Source: Ignavibacteriales bacterium (GTDB lineage: Bacteria; Bacteroidota; Ignavibacteria; UBA10030). From it: a DNA stretch of 64,000 nucleotides. The notes under the pieces are model-generated. The model was not told where the DNA came from. It did not search any database and saw only the letters and a program-made list of their open reading frames with translations. The stretch lies in assembly GCA_026390595.1 (NCBI GenBank), contig JAPLFQ010000003.1, positions 62,001 through 126,000 on the forward strand, given 5' to 3'. This document shows, piece by piece, positions 8,182 through 31,843 of this stretch. The position numbers and the translations under genes were made by a program. Each line of letters opens with the position of its first letter. The stretch's first letter is position 1.

Positions 8182-11100
8182 TTATCGTGTCACGAGCATT
8201 TTCCCTTGCAGCATTTTGTGGTTATCGATCAATGCCCGATAGAAGTAGACACCGCTGGAAACAGCATGTTGCCGATCGTCCTTGCCATCCCATTTCAGCC
8301 AATGTACTCCCTTGGTGAGTACGCCTCCATACAGGAGTCTCACTTGTCGCCCAAGGATGTCGTAGACCATTATCGTGATATCTGTCGCAGCAGGCAGCCT
8401 AACGGGAATGAACGTCTCGGGGTTAAACGGGTTTGGATAGTTCGGCCCCACCGAAGTCTCCGTCGGCAAGAGCTTTTCCATCTCCTCGTCTATGGTCTCC
8501 CGTTTCCCAATAAGTATTTCAAACGACATCTTCCCCTTCACCATCCCGAAAGTGTACTCGTTCTTCTGCTTGAGATTCACTGTCACTCCCCGCTCTTTGT
8601 CGACCAAGAATACGTCCTCCGTTTGCAGGATGCTCTGCACTCCCTTGGCAGTGATCGTCCGCTCGTCGAACAACTTCCCTTGCACTGTGAACTCCCATTT
8701 CTTCAGGTGGTTTGTTTCCGCTTTGATGTCCCTTCCGAACTCGACATATGTATTGTCCCATTCGGGTCTGTCGAAGTAGAGGCCCGACTTCTCCAGCCTC
8801 CTCGGCATCCGCTGGTCGTATCCATCCAGACCATCCTTTGCTTCTCGTTCAACTCCAATCTCGATCGTTTCACGTCCTACATCTCTCGTCTCACCGACTT
8901 GCTTCTCCGTCTCACATCTCACGTCTGACGTCCTACCGCCAGTACTAACCTCGATATACATCCTCCACCCACTTTCCGCACGCTGCTCAAACTCTGTCAA
9001 CTTCCCGAACGCGCTGCTGAAGGGTACTCTGAGTGTATTGAGGACTGGGCTTGGCGTACCATTGAAGAAGTAGTAGCCCGCATAAGGATCAAATGTGGCT
9101 GAGTTGTTAAAAGCCCCGTTGAAGCTGTAGATTGATCCCATGATACCGTTCGTTGTCTGTATCCTTGTCCATGGTATTGATTTGTCAAACGGGTTCGTGA
9201 TCAGGTTCCAGCCCGATCGCACCGCTATCTCTGCTTCCTGTATTGCATTGAGGGGCGCGGAGGGGACTGTCCTGGTGATACTGAGAGGGTTCTTCGAGAT
9301 AATCCAGAATGCCTTGCCTGCACTGAACTTGAAGTCTGCGCTGCCGTCATAGCGCTTCAGGTAACTACTCGCTGCTCCATTGTCCCAGACGATCTCCCAA
9401 TCCTCGTTCTGAATTCCTGAGACGATGTCCTTGGCGAAGATATCGCTCGAGCCAGGCAGGCCAATCAACCGATACTCCAGTGCCGTATACTCATTGGCTT
9501 TCGCTTTTGTAGCGAACGTAAGGCTGGTGCTCAATGGCACCGTTGGAGTATATGCTGGGATCGTCGTAAAACTCCACGGAGGCGAGTATGATCCATACCC
9601 TCCCTCGTTCTTGGCCCTGACTCTCCAGTAGTAGATGGTATTGTTCTGAAGGGGACTCAACCGCTTTGTTGTAGCGGAGAGAATTGTGTCATCCAGCAGA
9701 AATGGTGCAAAGCTGGAATTAGCTGAGACCTGGAGGTGATAGCCTGACGCTTCAGGTATCGATGACCAGGACAGCGTTGGACTTGTTAAAACACCTGCCT
9801 GTGCATTTGTTGGTGAAACGAGGTTTACGGCAGAGGGTGCCGCAACGATAGTTGTGAAGCTCCACGAACTTGAGAATGGCCCATACCCCGCATCGTTCTT
9901 CCCACGGACGCGCCAGTAATAAAGAGCGCTGTTCTGAATCCCTGTCAATTGTCTTGACGTTGCTGTCAGCGTAGTATCGTCAAGAATTGCTGTCGTAAAC
10001 GAAGAAGTAGTAGAGACCTGAAGGTGATACGATGTTGCTGCAGCCAACGCACCCCATGTACACGTTGGCGTGATCGGAACTGACACCGCCGAGTTCAACG
10101 GGGATGACAAGCTGGCCGTTGACGGAAGAGCCACGATGGTTGTGAAGCTCCAGGTTTGTGAATACGGGCCATCGCCTGCCCCATTCTTTCCTCTCACTCG
10201 CCAGTAAAGCGTTGTATTGTTCTGCAACATTCCGATTTGCTGCGATGTCTGCACTAAGGTCGTATCGTCAAATATCCGAGACACAAAAATCGGCGATGTC
10301 GACACCTGCAGCTGGTATTTCGTTGCATCTAAGAGTTGGCTCCAACTCAATCTCGGATCTACCGGAACTTTTTGCGCTTGATTCGCTGGCGACAAAAGTT
10401 GCACAGAAAGAGCGGGCGGTGCTGCAGGCTGTCCCCCCGTGTTAGTCGCAAACGACCAGATCGCCGAATAGGGACCATAGCCACCGTCGTTTTTGGCCCT
10501 GACCCGCCAGAAGTAGAGCGTGTTCGTTTGCAGGGGACCCACTTGTCTCGCTGTGTCAACGATAGTCGTGTCATCGAATACGCTTGTCGAGAAACCTGAT
10601 AATGTTGAGAGCTGGACATGGTAACTTGAGCCTCTTGGAACACTTAGCCAACTCAACACTGGAAACACCACTATGCCAGTCGCCCCCTGCGCAGGGCTCG
10701 CGCATATCACGGCAGAGGATGGTGCTGCCGTAATCGTCGTGAAACTCCACGTGAGAGAGTATGGCCCGTACCCTGCACTGTTCCTGGCTTGTACCCTCCA
10801 GTAGTACCTGGTTTCGTTGGAGAGCGTCATCAACTGGCGAGAGGTGGATGTCAGCGTTGAGTCATCAAGAGCGAGCGTCACGAATGTGACAGATGTTGAC
10901 ACCTGCAGATGATAGGTTTCGGAACCCACAACCTGACTCCAGGTCAGGACAGGACTGACCGATGTACCAGATGCGCCGTCGAGTGGTGAAGAGAGCACGG
11001 TGATGGCTGGAAGTGGCAGAGAAGCTGTGAAGGACAGAATCGCTCCCTTTTGCATGCCGGCACTGTTCTGGCCCACTGCCAGGTAGTAATATGTTGTGTT

Positions 11101-23700: not shown

Positions 23701-26700
23701 TTATTGAATGATGAGCATTTTGACAACGAAGTTCCTTAGTCCACTGCATTCTACTCGGAAGAAGTAGACACCAGTGCCAACTTTCGACTGATTGCTGTCT
23801 TTCCCATCCCACCTCATATAATGTCTGCCTGATTCCATGATTCCATTCTGCAGCACCTTCACCTGCCGACCGAGAATGTCGTAAACGACGATCGTTACAT
23901 CCATCGCCTTCGGCAACTCAATCGGGATGATCGTCTCCGGATTGAATGGGTTCGGATAGTTCGGACCCACCTTGATCTCCGTGGGCAGACTCTTTTCTGC
24001 CTCAGACCTGACCAACTCACTCGTCCCGACTAGTATTGAGATCTCTCTCTTAGAGCTTTGTACATCGCAATCATATGCCTGCATCTTCCTGAGATCCTGA
24101 GTTCTCTTCCCTTCCTGGTCCACCAAGTAGACTTCATACTGACTCGGGACCGTTTCTGTCCCCGTTACTTTGATCTGTGTCGTCGTTTTGGCCTTCGCAG
24201 CGAGCTCGATGTTCCACTTCTCTATATTGTTTACCTGAGGCCTTATATCCATCCTGAACGTCGGATAGTCTTTGTCCCATTCCTCTCGGCTCAAGCTGAC
24301 CTGACTGATCTCTCCCACGGCTCTCGGCATCCTTTGATCAAAGGCATCCAGCCCTGGTTTTGCCTCAGGCTCTACACCAATCTCCACCCTGCTATCCCCT
24401 GCCTGGACTTGTAGTCTCCAGCCTTTGCTGTTCGCTGGTGCTTCCACTGTCTTCGTGAACAGGCTGGCATAGGGCACTCGCAGCGTTGTCAAGATTGCAT
24501 TGGGAGATCCGTTGAAGAAGTAGTAGCCTGTATAAGGATCAAATGTCGAGGATACGTTGAACACTCCGCTGAAGGAATATATCGGGGCTGTCGTTCCATT
24601 GATCGTCTGTATCTTCGACCACTGTGTTGATGCGTTGAACGGGTTCGTTATCAGGTTCCAGCCCGCCTGCAATGGAATCTCGACCTCCTGGTTCGTGTTC
24701 AGCGTTGCCGCTCCCAGCGTCCGGCTCACATTCACCGCATTCTTGGCTATCACCCAGAATGCCCTCCCCTGCGTGAACCTAAACGTCTGGCTCCCGTCAT
24801 ACTTCTTCATATAATTGCTCGAGCTTCCATCATCCCAGTACACCTGCCAGTCATAGTTCTCTCTGCCAGTAAAGACCGAGTCTACCGGGAGGTTACTCCC
24901 TCCAGGAAGCCCAAAGAGCTTATAGTCTGTTGGGGTATAGTCTGATGCCTTTGCCCTAGTTGAGAACCCAAGGCTTGTGCTCACCGATACTGCCGGTGTA
25001 TAGACCGGGATCGTCGTAAAGCTCCATGTTGATGAATAGAGACCATACCCCCCTGCATTCTTCCCCCTGATGCGCCACTGATAGATCGTGTTGTTCTGAA
25101 GAGGACCTATCTGCCTTGATGTGGCTGTCAGGGTGGTGTCATCAATCAGGTTGGAGGCAAAACTCACATCCGTCGAGACCTGCAGGTGATAATTGGTCGC
25201 TGCGCCAAGACTTGTCCAGCTCAGTGTCGGGCTGGTAGGCACCCCTCCTGATCCATTGGGAGGAAACTGCAGTGTCGCTGATGCAGGTGCGGCTATTACT
25301 GTCGTAAAACTCCAAGTCGGTGAGTAGGGACCATAGCCAGCCACGTTCCTTGCACAGACATGCCAGTAGTACGCCGTGCTATTTTGAAGTGAGCTGAGTT
25401 GCTGTGATATCCCCGTCAGCGTTGAGTCTTCGAACACCAAGGTCCCAAAGCTTGCACTTGTTGAGACTTGAAGACGATACGTTGTTGCTGTCAGAACTGA
25501 GGACCATCTCAACACCGGTGATGTTGGCACACCGCCAGCGTTGTCACTCGGAGCAGAAAGAACAACGATGCTCGGCAGTGCTACAATCGTGGCAAAGCTC
25601 CATGTCGAAGAGTACGGGCCATACCCTCCCGCGTTCTTACCTCGAACACGCCAGTAGTAAGTTGTGTTGTTCTGAAGCGGACCCATTTGCTTAGATGTTC
25701 CGAGTAACGTTGTATCATCTACCACCAACGAACTGAAGTTCACATCCGAGCTTACCTGTAGATCATAGCTTGTCGCAGTGCTGAGGATTGACCAGATTAA
25801 TGTCGGTGCGGTCGTAATACCCGTCGCCGTGTTCCCCGGCGACTGCAGCACTGCCGCCAATGGAGCAGCGATGATCGTGGTGAAGCTCCACGTCGATGAG
25901 TAGGGACCGTCTCCTGCTGCGTTCTTTCCGTGCATTCGCCAGTAGTAGGTGGTGTTGTTCTGCAGCCCGGCTAATTGGCGGGACGTGGTGACTGATGTAC
26001 TATCCTCGAGCACCAACACAGTAAACGATGGGCTTGTCGAGAGCTCTAGATGATAGACCGCTGCCCCCATGACACCATTCCAGCTAACCATCGGATTAAC
26101 AGCCACTCCCACCGATCCATCAGCTGGTAGTGACAGCATCACAGTTGACGGCAAGGCCACAGTTGTCGTTAAGCTCCATGTCGGAGAGTAGGAACCATAC
26201 CCTCCCGCGTTCTTGCCCCTCACTCTCCAGTAGTATGTCGTGTTGTTTTGAAGTGGACCTATCTGCTTCGCCGTCCCCGTCACTGTTGTGTCATCAACTA
26301 CAAGTGAACTGAAGTTCAAATCCTGGCTCACCTGGACGTGATAACTAGTCGCTGTGCTTATACTCGTCCAACTCAAGAACGGTGTGGTAATAATGCCCGT
26401 TGATGTATTCAAAGGGGATTGCAGTGCAGCCACCGATGGAGCGGCTATGATCGTCGTGAAGCTCCACGTCGATGAGTAGGGACCGTCTCCTGCTCCGTTG
26501 CTCGCATGAACTCGCCAATAATACGTCGTGCTGTTCTGAAGCGCTACCAGTTGACGTGATGGTATTGCCAGCGTCGTATCATCCGTACTGAGTGATAGAA
26601 AAGATGAACTTGTCGCAACCTCTAGATGGTACACGGAAGCTTCCGAGAGCTGGCTCCAAGTTAGCAGTGGATTCGTGCTGACTCCGGTGGCACTGTTCGC

Positions 26701-30241: not shown

Positions 30242-30595
30242 CTACTGCACCAGCATGATTTTCCCGCTGACGATTTTTCTTGCCGTTGGTATTTCCACGC
30301 GATACAAATACGCCCCACTTGCCATTTTACGCCTCTGCCCATCGGTTCCATCCCACCGAATGTAGCTTCTGCCCTCTGCCATCATCCCGTCATGAAGTAT
30401 CCGTACCTCTCTGCCTAAGATATCATAAATGAATATCTTCACTTCCATCGCCTTCGGCAGCTCAACCGGTATGATCGTCTCCGGATTTCCGCCATAGGCG
30501 GATCCGCCTCCGGCGGAGAACGGGTTCGAATAGTTCGGTCCGACCTTGATCTCCGTCGGCATCAGCTTTTTCATCTCTGCGTCTACCCACGGCAT
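30242..30595 (-). CDS. Orphan T9SS sorting domain (remnant or read-through extension)
   Basis: 117 codons made up almost wholly of a T9SS sorting domain: KLMPTEIKVGPNY, VYDILGRxV-like IYDILGREV, and ASGAYLYRVE ... GKIMLVQ. It has no signal peptide or passenger domain, so as a free protein it could not reach T9SS. It lies in the same frame as the M48 peptidase upstream, separated by a single TAA (30605-30607) and the codons for FEE. Its NPFNPET motif is split by a ten-residue insertion (SAGGGSAYGG) encoded by a 30-base palindrome. It may be the tail of a deleted giant, or the end of a peptidase-cargo fusion broken by a stop. The ATG has GAAGAG directly against it, too close for a good ribosome site. 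Confidence 0.6.
   Translation of the reverse strand: MPWVDAEMKKLMPTEIKVGPNYSNPFSAGGGSAYGGNPETIIPVELPKAMEVKIFIYDILGREVRILHDGMMAEGRSYIRWDGTDGQRRKMASGAYLYRVEIPTARKIVSGKIMLVQ
30488..30517. repeat. 30-base double palindrome inserted in frame
   Basis: Two hairpins stand side by side: tccgcc-ata-ggcgga (30488-30502) and tccgcc-tcc-ggcgga (30503-30517). They occupy exactly ten codons and add SAGGGSAYGG between F and N of NPF-NPET in the sorting domain. The flanking codons restore the motif exactly, which points to insertion of a mobile palindromic element. Confidence 0.75.
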
Positions 30596-30604
30596 CTCTT
30601 CAAA

Positions 30605-31843
30605 TTATCGCACTATCCGCCTGAACCTCTCTCCATTTCTGGCACCGCCAGCGTAACCAGGGTTTGCCTGCAGCAGCTTGTGCAGCGCAGCGTACCTTTT
30701 CTCAAAATCCAGATGCATAAAGGGACTTTCTGTCCAGTCTTTGACGCGACCCTTGATGACTCGACCAGTCTTCTCGACGATTCCCGGCACAGCCTGCGCA
30801 TCATAGCCAAGAGATGAGAGCATCATCACTGCCGCCTTGTCGGCTTGTTCTTCGTAAACCTGGAGGCGAGGCTTCACGACCTCATCGTATGCTTCCTGGA
30901 TCATCTCTTCGAGATCCGTCTCAGATGAATCGGGCTTCTGGTCAAGCTCCCGTTCAAGCTCCGCAAAGACCTCATCCATTCTCACTCTGAATCTCCGTTG
31001 GAACTCTTCCTCCATGGCATGGCCGGCTGCGAGATGAGCAATTTCGTGCGCAATGATTGCGGCCAGCTCTGCCTCATCACTGCACAGATGGATCAATCCC
31101 TCCCCCAGGAATATGTATCCACCCGGGATCGCATAGGCCCTCGGCTCTTCGCCTTTGAGAACATAAACCCTCATTGGCGTATCGAAGTATGGCGTCATGA
31201 CAGCAAGTGTGGCGGCGAGCAGGTTTACGTACTTCACCAGTTGTCGGTTCGAGACCAACCCCTGACTCGCCAACCGCGCTGCTATCCCTGCCCCTAATCC
31301 ATCCAGAGAGACCGACGACTCGGGCTCCTTCATCAGATCGGCAATACCTGAGGACGATTTCTGCTGAGTGATCAGACGGCCTCCTTTCGTCATCAATTCA
31401 AACTCGGCGTATTCCTCTGAAGTAAACAACCCCTCCTGCATCCCAAGCACGGTGTCGACAACTGCTGAAGGTACTTTCCCATACCGCACGGCAAATCCAC
31501 GGATTGCTGCCGCGACGGCAGACGGGGAGGCTTTGGACGACTGCCATTCGAGCTTCAAATCGCGCAGCAAATCGATTGGCTTGCCTTCAACCAGGCAATT
31601 CTTGGAAAGCCAGACTGACATCCCACCTGCAGAGTTCCCTGGCTTGAAGTTCACCCATCCTCCGTCACGCTTCATGATGGGAACTGGGACACCCTTTGGC
31701 AGCACCTTCAAGAGCTGGAAGTAGCTTCCGGGACCATCGCGAACCTCATTCTTGGATCGCTTCGTGTATTCTACCGATTGTGAAATCCCCGGCGCCCAGA
31801 CGCTGAGGATGGCAATGACCAACAACCATGCTATTCGTCGCAT
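30605..31843 (-). CDS. Exported SH3b-M48 zinc metallopeptidase
   Basis: 412 residues with a signal peptide (about 1-22). AAGGT precedes the ATG. Residues about 25-85 form a bacterial SH3 domain (VRDGPGSYFQLLKVLPKGVP, GGWVNF), which usually binds peptidoglycan. A helical link is followed by the M48 (BepA/Oma1-like) peptidase: HEIAH at 266-270 gives two zinc ligands and the catalytic Glu, and the downstream EEQADKAA (about 331-338) supplies the third ligand. Such enzymes act in the periplasm on misfolded or stalled envelope proteins. It starts 9 bases after the CHASE2 cyclase stop, so the two are co-transcribed. A sorting-domain fragment follows in the same frame after one TAA. A likely job is quality control of the giant exported proteins; this is inferred. 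Confidence 0.9.
   Translation of the reverse strand: MRRIAWLLVIAILSVWAPGISQSVEYTKRSKNEVRDGPGSYFQLLKVLPKGVPVPIMKRDGGWVNFKPGNSAGGMSVWLSKNCLVEGKPIDLLRDLKLEWQSSKASPSAVAAAIRGFAVRYGKVPSAVVDTVLGMQEGLFTSEEYAEFELMTKGGRLITQQKSSSGIADLMKEPESSVSLDGLGAGIAARLASQGLVSNRQLVKYVNLLAATLAVMTPYFDTPMRVYVLKGEEPRAYAIPGGYIFLGEGLIHLCSDEAELAAIIAHEIAHLAAGHAMEEEFQRRFRVRMDEVFAELERELDQKPDSSETDLEEMIQEAYDEVVKPRLQVYEEQADKAAVMMLSSLGYDAQAVPGIVEKTGRVIKGRVKDWTESPFMHLDFEKRYAALHKLLQANPGYAGGARNGERFRRIVR

Follow-up and report, generated by a model that had tools for sequence, protein, structure and literature searches.

A 30-bp double hairpin in a T9SS sorting motif is probably one copy of a dispersed family of palindromic elements in bacteria

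A double palindrome in an orphan sorting domain

In the window (the whole 64-kb stretch of DNA analysed here), a 117-aa ORF on the minus strand encodes a T9SS type A C-terminal sorting domain, with the NYPNPFNP motif and an Ig-like beta-sandwich. Its Pfam match is FlgD_ig (7.2e-8), its AF2 model is a beta-sandwich, and its Foldseek matches include PorZ, PorU and RemA-CTD. The features of the locus are listed below with window coordinates; here and throughout, a slash marks a point of insertion.

30242-30595, minus strand: host ORF, 117 aa, T9SS C-terminal sorting domain, orphan without passenger (motif, Pfam, AF2, Foldseek)
30485-30520, minus strand: insertion site TTC/AAT between Phe and Asn of NPF/NP (flank counts, paralogue alignments)
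30488-30517, no strand: double-hairpin element of 30 bp, two 15-bp units in inverted orientation
30488-30502, no strand: unit 1, hairpin tccgcc-ata-ggcgga (sequence, local uniqueness, family covariation)
30503-30517, no strand: unit 2, hairpin tccgcc-tcc-ggcgga (sequence, local uniqueness, family covariation)
30605-31843, minus strand: upstream ORF, 412 aa, probable secreted SH3/M48-type peptidase (HEIAH motif)
23704-24033, minus strand: intact paralogous tail, site empty (NPFNPET; alignment)
ORFs ending at 8182, 18358, 34083 and 51296: further tails with empty sites (alignment)

The sequence of 30488-30517 is tccgccataggcgga followed directly by tccgcctccggcgga. The second unit is an inverted copy of the first, since its loop starts with T where the loop of unit 1 ends with A. 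Read on the minus strand, the insert yields SAGGGSAYGG, which is placed between F and N of NPFNPET and corresponds to residues 27-36 of the host ORF; in the AF2 model, residues 27-37 (the insert plus one) are the sole segment with a pLDDT below 50. When the insert is deleted, AACCCGTTC is joined to AATCCGGAGACG and NPFNPET is restored. An exact 30-base double palindrome that adds ten codons to a motif otherwise intact, as described in the initial annotation, was thus borne out by the sequence and by translation with and without the insert.

A search of the window for TCCGCCN3GGCGGA with at most one mismatch returned two matches, both within the insert, while 0.16 were expected from shuffled sequences and two were reached in one of 100 shuffles. 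The observation that the window holds no second copy was therefore correct, the genome, however, containing 14. The insert folds better than any of its shuffles, with z-scores of -3.4 (RNA) and -3.5 (DNA). A search of the insert region against Rfam returned no family.

A comparison with a site lacking the insert, a check which the initial annotation had recommended for the orthologous site, was provided by the paralogous tail L271 of a sister genome (66% identical at the DNA level). The alignment contains one gap of 30 nt exactly at the insert, and no target duplication was seen at the window site. The ten residues are missing from L271 and also from all five intact tails of the window that were aligned.

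The 412-aa ORF upstream of the host ORF probably encodes a secreted peptidase; this assignment comes from reading the HEIAH motif rather than from a profile search. The tail lies directly downstream in the same frame and is separated from the peptidase ORF by a TAA stop (window 30242-30607). The orthologues of the peptidase in the sister genomes G338 and G339, with DNA identities of 91% and 85%, lack a tail at that place. Because the tail is an orphan in this sense, the window copy may sit in a relic. A cluster at 8182-30117 and 34083-58807 of the window comprises several giant ORFs of up to 4211 aa, which contain repeated domains and bear T9SS tails; its neighbours were assigned by eye as caspase-like and adenylate-cyclase/CHASE2-like.

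Distribution of the element family

The family to which the insert conforms has the general form TNNGCC-NNA-GGCNNA:TNNGCC-TNN-GGCNNA, again with two 15-bp units in inverted orientation. The initial annotation had proposed to search the whole genome and its relatives for such hairpin pairs. We found five exact and 14 general copies in the source genome, and 57 of 294 genomes in a sample of the class were positive, with 342 copies as summed over the table. In a second sample, centred on Patescibacteria and drawn on the basis of the phylum to which a Liptonbacteria genome belongs, 43 of 287 genomes carried the element. The reversed control pattern gave no match in the source genome or in either sample. 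The highest copy number in one genome was 75.

A scan of GTDB contigs revealed at least 118 loci. Among the matches listed, Patescibacteria and Omnitrophota were the majority; Kiritimatiellae, Lentisphaerae, Ignavibacteria, Auribacterota and Margulisiibacteriota were also represented, Chloroflexota and Deltaproteobacteria by a single record each. Plasmids and E. coli genomes gave no match when one 30-mer was used as the BLASTN query. A viral vehicle was considered and rejected, as one viral contig alone matched. In the openly licensed literature we found no earlier description of the sequence, or of coding palindromes in candidate phyla.

Since loop sequences vary among the copies within one genome, most genomes show no sign of recent copy-and-paste from one master copy. 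In the source genome, the copies on C3 and C8 are identical. Three intergenic copies in G000 (L145, L149 and L151) have arms which are almost identical, TGAGCC/TGCGCC. Of these, L145 and L149 are embedded in similar intergenic sequence, perhaps a larger intergenic repeat which carries the element.

Covariation of the arms

The arms differ between copies (TCCGCC, TGCGCC, TGAGCC, TCAGCC and others), and the partner arm changes along. At the two variable positions the outer pairs are kept in 345 and 337 of 350 cases, against 277 and 266 expected. The minimum-energy fold of the window copy is one long hairpin. Despite this, we rejected the long hairpin as the conserved structure on the basis of 53 copies with mixed arms, in which 193 of 212 pairs are formed within the units and 95 of 212 in the long hairpin. 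Since these copies pair within units and not across them, the conserved structure is two hairpins. In a census of units we counted 179 doubles, no triples and 54 single-unit matches, many of the latter being doubles in which the second unit was missed by the strict pairing rule. A control with swapped cores gave at most one double, compared to 179.

Insertion site and mobility

According to the flank counts (123-175 copies), the element is preceded by TTY and followed by RAA. The paralogous empty site implies that these flanking bases belong to the target, TTY/RAA, and that nothing was duplicated upon insertion. At a site between two tRNA genes, the identical 30-mer is present in G000 and G242, whereas the site is empty in G174 and G339. 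G000 and G242 share this insertion although their flanks have diverged. Four further orthologue alignments (L280, L281, L284 and L286) were uninformative, being in the other orientation, cut short or non-orthologous. Hairpin loops were not preferred as targets when compared to TTYRAW control sites.

Another copy lies within the T loop of a tRNA-Ser(GGA) gene at TTC/GAA (L007 1501-1530, corresponding to G000:C27:35532-35561). The idea that the element is tolerated there in the sole tRNA gene of this kind was rejected, because an intact tRNA-Ser(GGA) copy is located approximately 300 bp away.

The titled GTDB records among the matches listed are nearly all MAGs or environmental assemblies, as would be expected for an artefact of metagenome assembly or a library adapter. 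Such an origin is highly improbable, since the element was recovered in many independent projects, its arms covary, open reading frames are kept (see below), and the inherited site in G000 and G242 has diverged flanks.

Copies inside protein genes

When TTY/RAA is entered in phase 0, both strands of the element encode SAxGGSAxGG. Stop-free spans of 150 codons or more, in which the copy was bordered on either side by no fewer than 15 codons, contained 70 of the 113 public copies. When the span criterion was relaxed, random 30-mers from these loci scored slightly higher (84%) than the copies (73%). Among the 78 copies in open frames, defined by at least 60 codons on both sides, phases 0, 1 and 2 were represented by 67, 2 and 9 copies, while the corresponding numbers for the background, TTYRAW sites within ORFs at the public loci, were 1156, 187 and 1113 (chi-square P 1e-10). 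In-frame stops were found in one of the 67 phase-0 copies, whereas for the other copies they were present in 49 of 220 phase-0 strand readings (22%; Fisher P 1e-5). The bias towards codon boundaries and the near absence of in-frame stops, both read from genome sequences, indicate that the insert is translated by ribosomes and filtered by selection.

The proteins carrying the element include AtpD, TsaD, RsmH, CysS, phosphomannomutase, DnaJ (twice), GyrB, MurC, PheT (twice) and RpoB. Homologues of solved structure in the PDB show exact gaps of ten residues opposite the insert for CysS and TsaD; for AtpD the gap comprises nine residues, with one residue aligned across it. An NCBIfam scan of ten carrier proteins named no repeat-element domain. 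One PheT gene (L031 4444-6930) contains two copies, one of which is beside what looks like an NlpC/P60 domain (Pfam 382-451) inserted midway in the synthetase.

The presence of copies inside essential genes, together with the strong RNA hairpins, would also fit with an insert which is bypassed by the ribosome or removed from the RNA, so that its coding content is irrelevant. We consider this very unlikely, because the codon-boundary bias and the low frequency of stops show that the content matters, and because the insert length in all copies found is a multiple of three.

The peptide recurs across many T9SS tails, and one may ask whether it is an old coding feature, i.e. a conserved glycine-rich loop rather than an insertion. 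The initial annotation had noted that in this case most homologues of the sorting domain should contain the residues. They are absent from the five aligned window tails and from L271, and the PDB homologues of three unrelated enzymes lack them too. Furthermore, copies also lie between genes and within a tRNA gene, and at an orthologous site the element is present in some genomes and absent in others. The chance that the loop is ancestral is therefore close to nil. Conversely, the original view of an in-frame palindrome insertion gained support from the empty paralogous and orthologous sites, the dispersed copies, and the in-frame copies in unrelated genes.

T9SS tails as recurrent targets

The NPF/N boundary was hit repeatedly. 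We found 12 copies at this position, all in T9SS tails, in seven genomes of five genera and with differing codons and loops; most of these tails have long ORFs upstream. EVEF/NA is the second site struck in T9SS tails, and in the tail L308 apparently both sites are filled. NPF/NP and EVEF/NA are hit because both are written TTY/AAY and thus match the general target TTY/RAA. The initial annotation stressed that the insertion strikes the most conserved signal of a secretion tag. The position in NPF/NP is correct, while the functional emphasis could not be maintained: the sorting motif is one hot spot among many and no special functional target, and in the window the tag is an orphan.

The identity of the C3 and C8 copies, and their location in a conserved protein motif, raise the question whether a single insertion was followed by gene conversion among T9SS paralogues, instead of repeated insertion. 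As a general explanation this is quite unlikely, given the differences in loops and surrounding codons among the 12 NPF-site copies. Moreover, the element is found in unrelated genes, between which paralogue conversion cannot take place, and consequently conversion cannot be the sole route. It could nevertheless be part of the explanation where several T9SS genes within a genome share similar copies.

Proposed mechanism and comparison with known elements

Taken together, we regard the 30-bp insert as one copy of a dispersed, non-autonomous double-hairpin family with the following history of insertion and selection, a reading to which we assign a probability of roughly 0.8. An enzyme acting in trans would recognize the hairpins and paste the element at TTY/RAA without target duplication. 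Recognition would most likely take place in single-stranded DNA, by analogy with HUH enzymes and elements of the REP/REPIN type. Selection would then purge most of the copies which are in other codon phases or bring in stops. In the phase-0 survivors, either strand would provide a soluble Gly/Ala/Ser linker, SAxGGSAxGG, that forms a disordered loop within the protein carrying it. The element would be tolerated even in essential genes because the peptide encoded by either strand is short, flexible and harmless.

The obvious candidates for such an enzyme are RAYTs, and the element could be a true REP/REPIN moved by a host RAYT (Y1 HUH transposase). Like REPs and REPINs (PMC2817692, PMC3116915), it consists of short palindromes in inverted pairs, its stems are preserved by compensating changes, and it is non-autonomous. 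Inverted hairpin pairs, covarying arms and duplication-free insertion resemble REPINs and BIMEs, and the source genome has nine Y1_Tnp matches. On the other hand, RAYT genes are described as invariably having two inverted REPs with a GT(A/G)G head at their flanks (PMC2817692), while neither the element nor a single unit was present at any of the 39 Y1_Tnp (PF01797) loci examined. The copies have no such head, their flanks showing TTY and RAA only, they flank no RAYT, and they are often in coding sequence. In addition, six genomes with 8-18 copies (G297, G301, G069, G320, G325 and G296) gave no Y1_Tnp match, although these genomes may be incomplete. Mobilization by a RAYT is thus unlikely. Within the 118 listed loci, no gene or transposase family recurs beside the copies; the neighbours are ordinary genes at scattered distances.

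The initial annotation compared the insert to the Rickettsia palindromic elements (RPEs). RPEs are approximately 150 bp long, with ten families reported, and were described in Rickettsia (Ogata et al. 2000, 2002, as summarized in PMC10969869 and PMC6649704). As far as these summaries describe RPEs, the likeness holds for a dispersed palindrome which is inserted in frame in genes of diverse function and adds a peptide to the protein. It does not extend to membership. By the same descriptions, the element is set apart by its length of 30 bp, its two small hairpins, its TTY/RAA site and the Gly/Ser/Ala linker encoded by both of its strands; its hosts are Patescibacteria, Omnitrophota, Kiritimatiellae, Ignavibacteria and others instead of Rickettsia.

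In architecture, the element resembles the mitochondrial double-hairpin elements of Allomyces (Paquin et al. 2000, as cited in PMC2800124) and related repetitive hairpin elements, which according to this citation are mostly intergenic. Two tiny adjacent stem-loops, dispersal, and variability among relatives are common to both, which does not imply descent. Going by that description, the element in question differs in being bacterial rather than organellar, in having one conserved core across phyla and in its frequent in-frame location in genes. Short palindromes in protein genes are also present in the mitochondria of Magnusiomyces capitatus, where they are bypassed and remain untranslated according to PMC6649704; for the element described here, the phase and stop statistics indicate translation. 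From MITEs it differs by the lack of a target-site duplication at the window site. The element works like RPEs and the mitochondrial double-hairpin elements and is a member of neither. There is a fair chance that, with its enzyme identified, it will prove to be a class of its own.

It is tempting to speculate further, at slightly less than even odds, that a mobile 30-bp double hairpin shared across phyla uses its own insertion machinery at TTY/RAA, that linker coding on both strands makes the essential genes of compact genomes safe landing sites for it, and that it represents a class of bacterial mobile elements separate from REPINs, MITEs and RPEs.

So far, coding palindromes have mostly been regarded as a Rickettsia curiosity. 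A far smaller one, present in many uncultured phyla and in indispensable genes, would make long-open questions testable, i.e. how palindromes move, how harmless linkers can arise from both strands, and in what way the proteins of streamlined genomes are shaped by insertions. For annotators and structure modellers, SAxGGSAxGG loops call for caution, as they are insertions. Last but not least, natural in-frame linker insertions can be used to map the permissive sites of core proteins.

Further short inserts of repeat-like sequence, also in frame, such as ISFAGAQDDSG, PPYQGG, PDRQAG and RRSFSEGG, were seen in similar kinds of proteins at L044, L056, L066, L082, L116, L123 and L311. Their DNA looks palindromic too, which hints at several further families of coding palindromes in these genomes.
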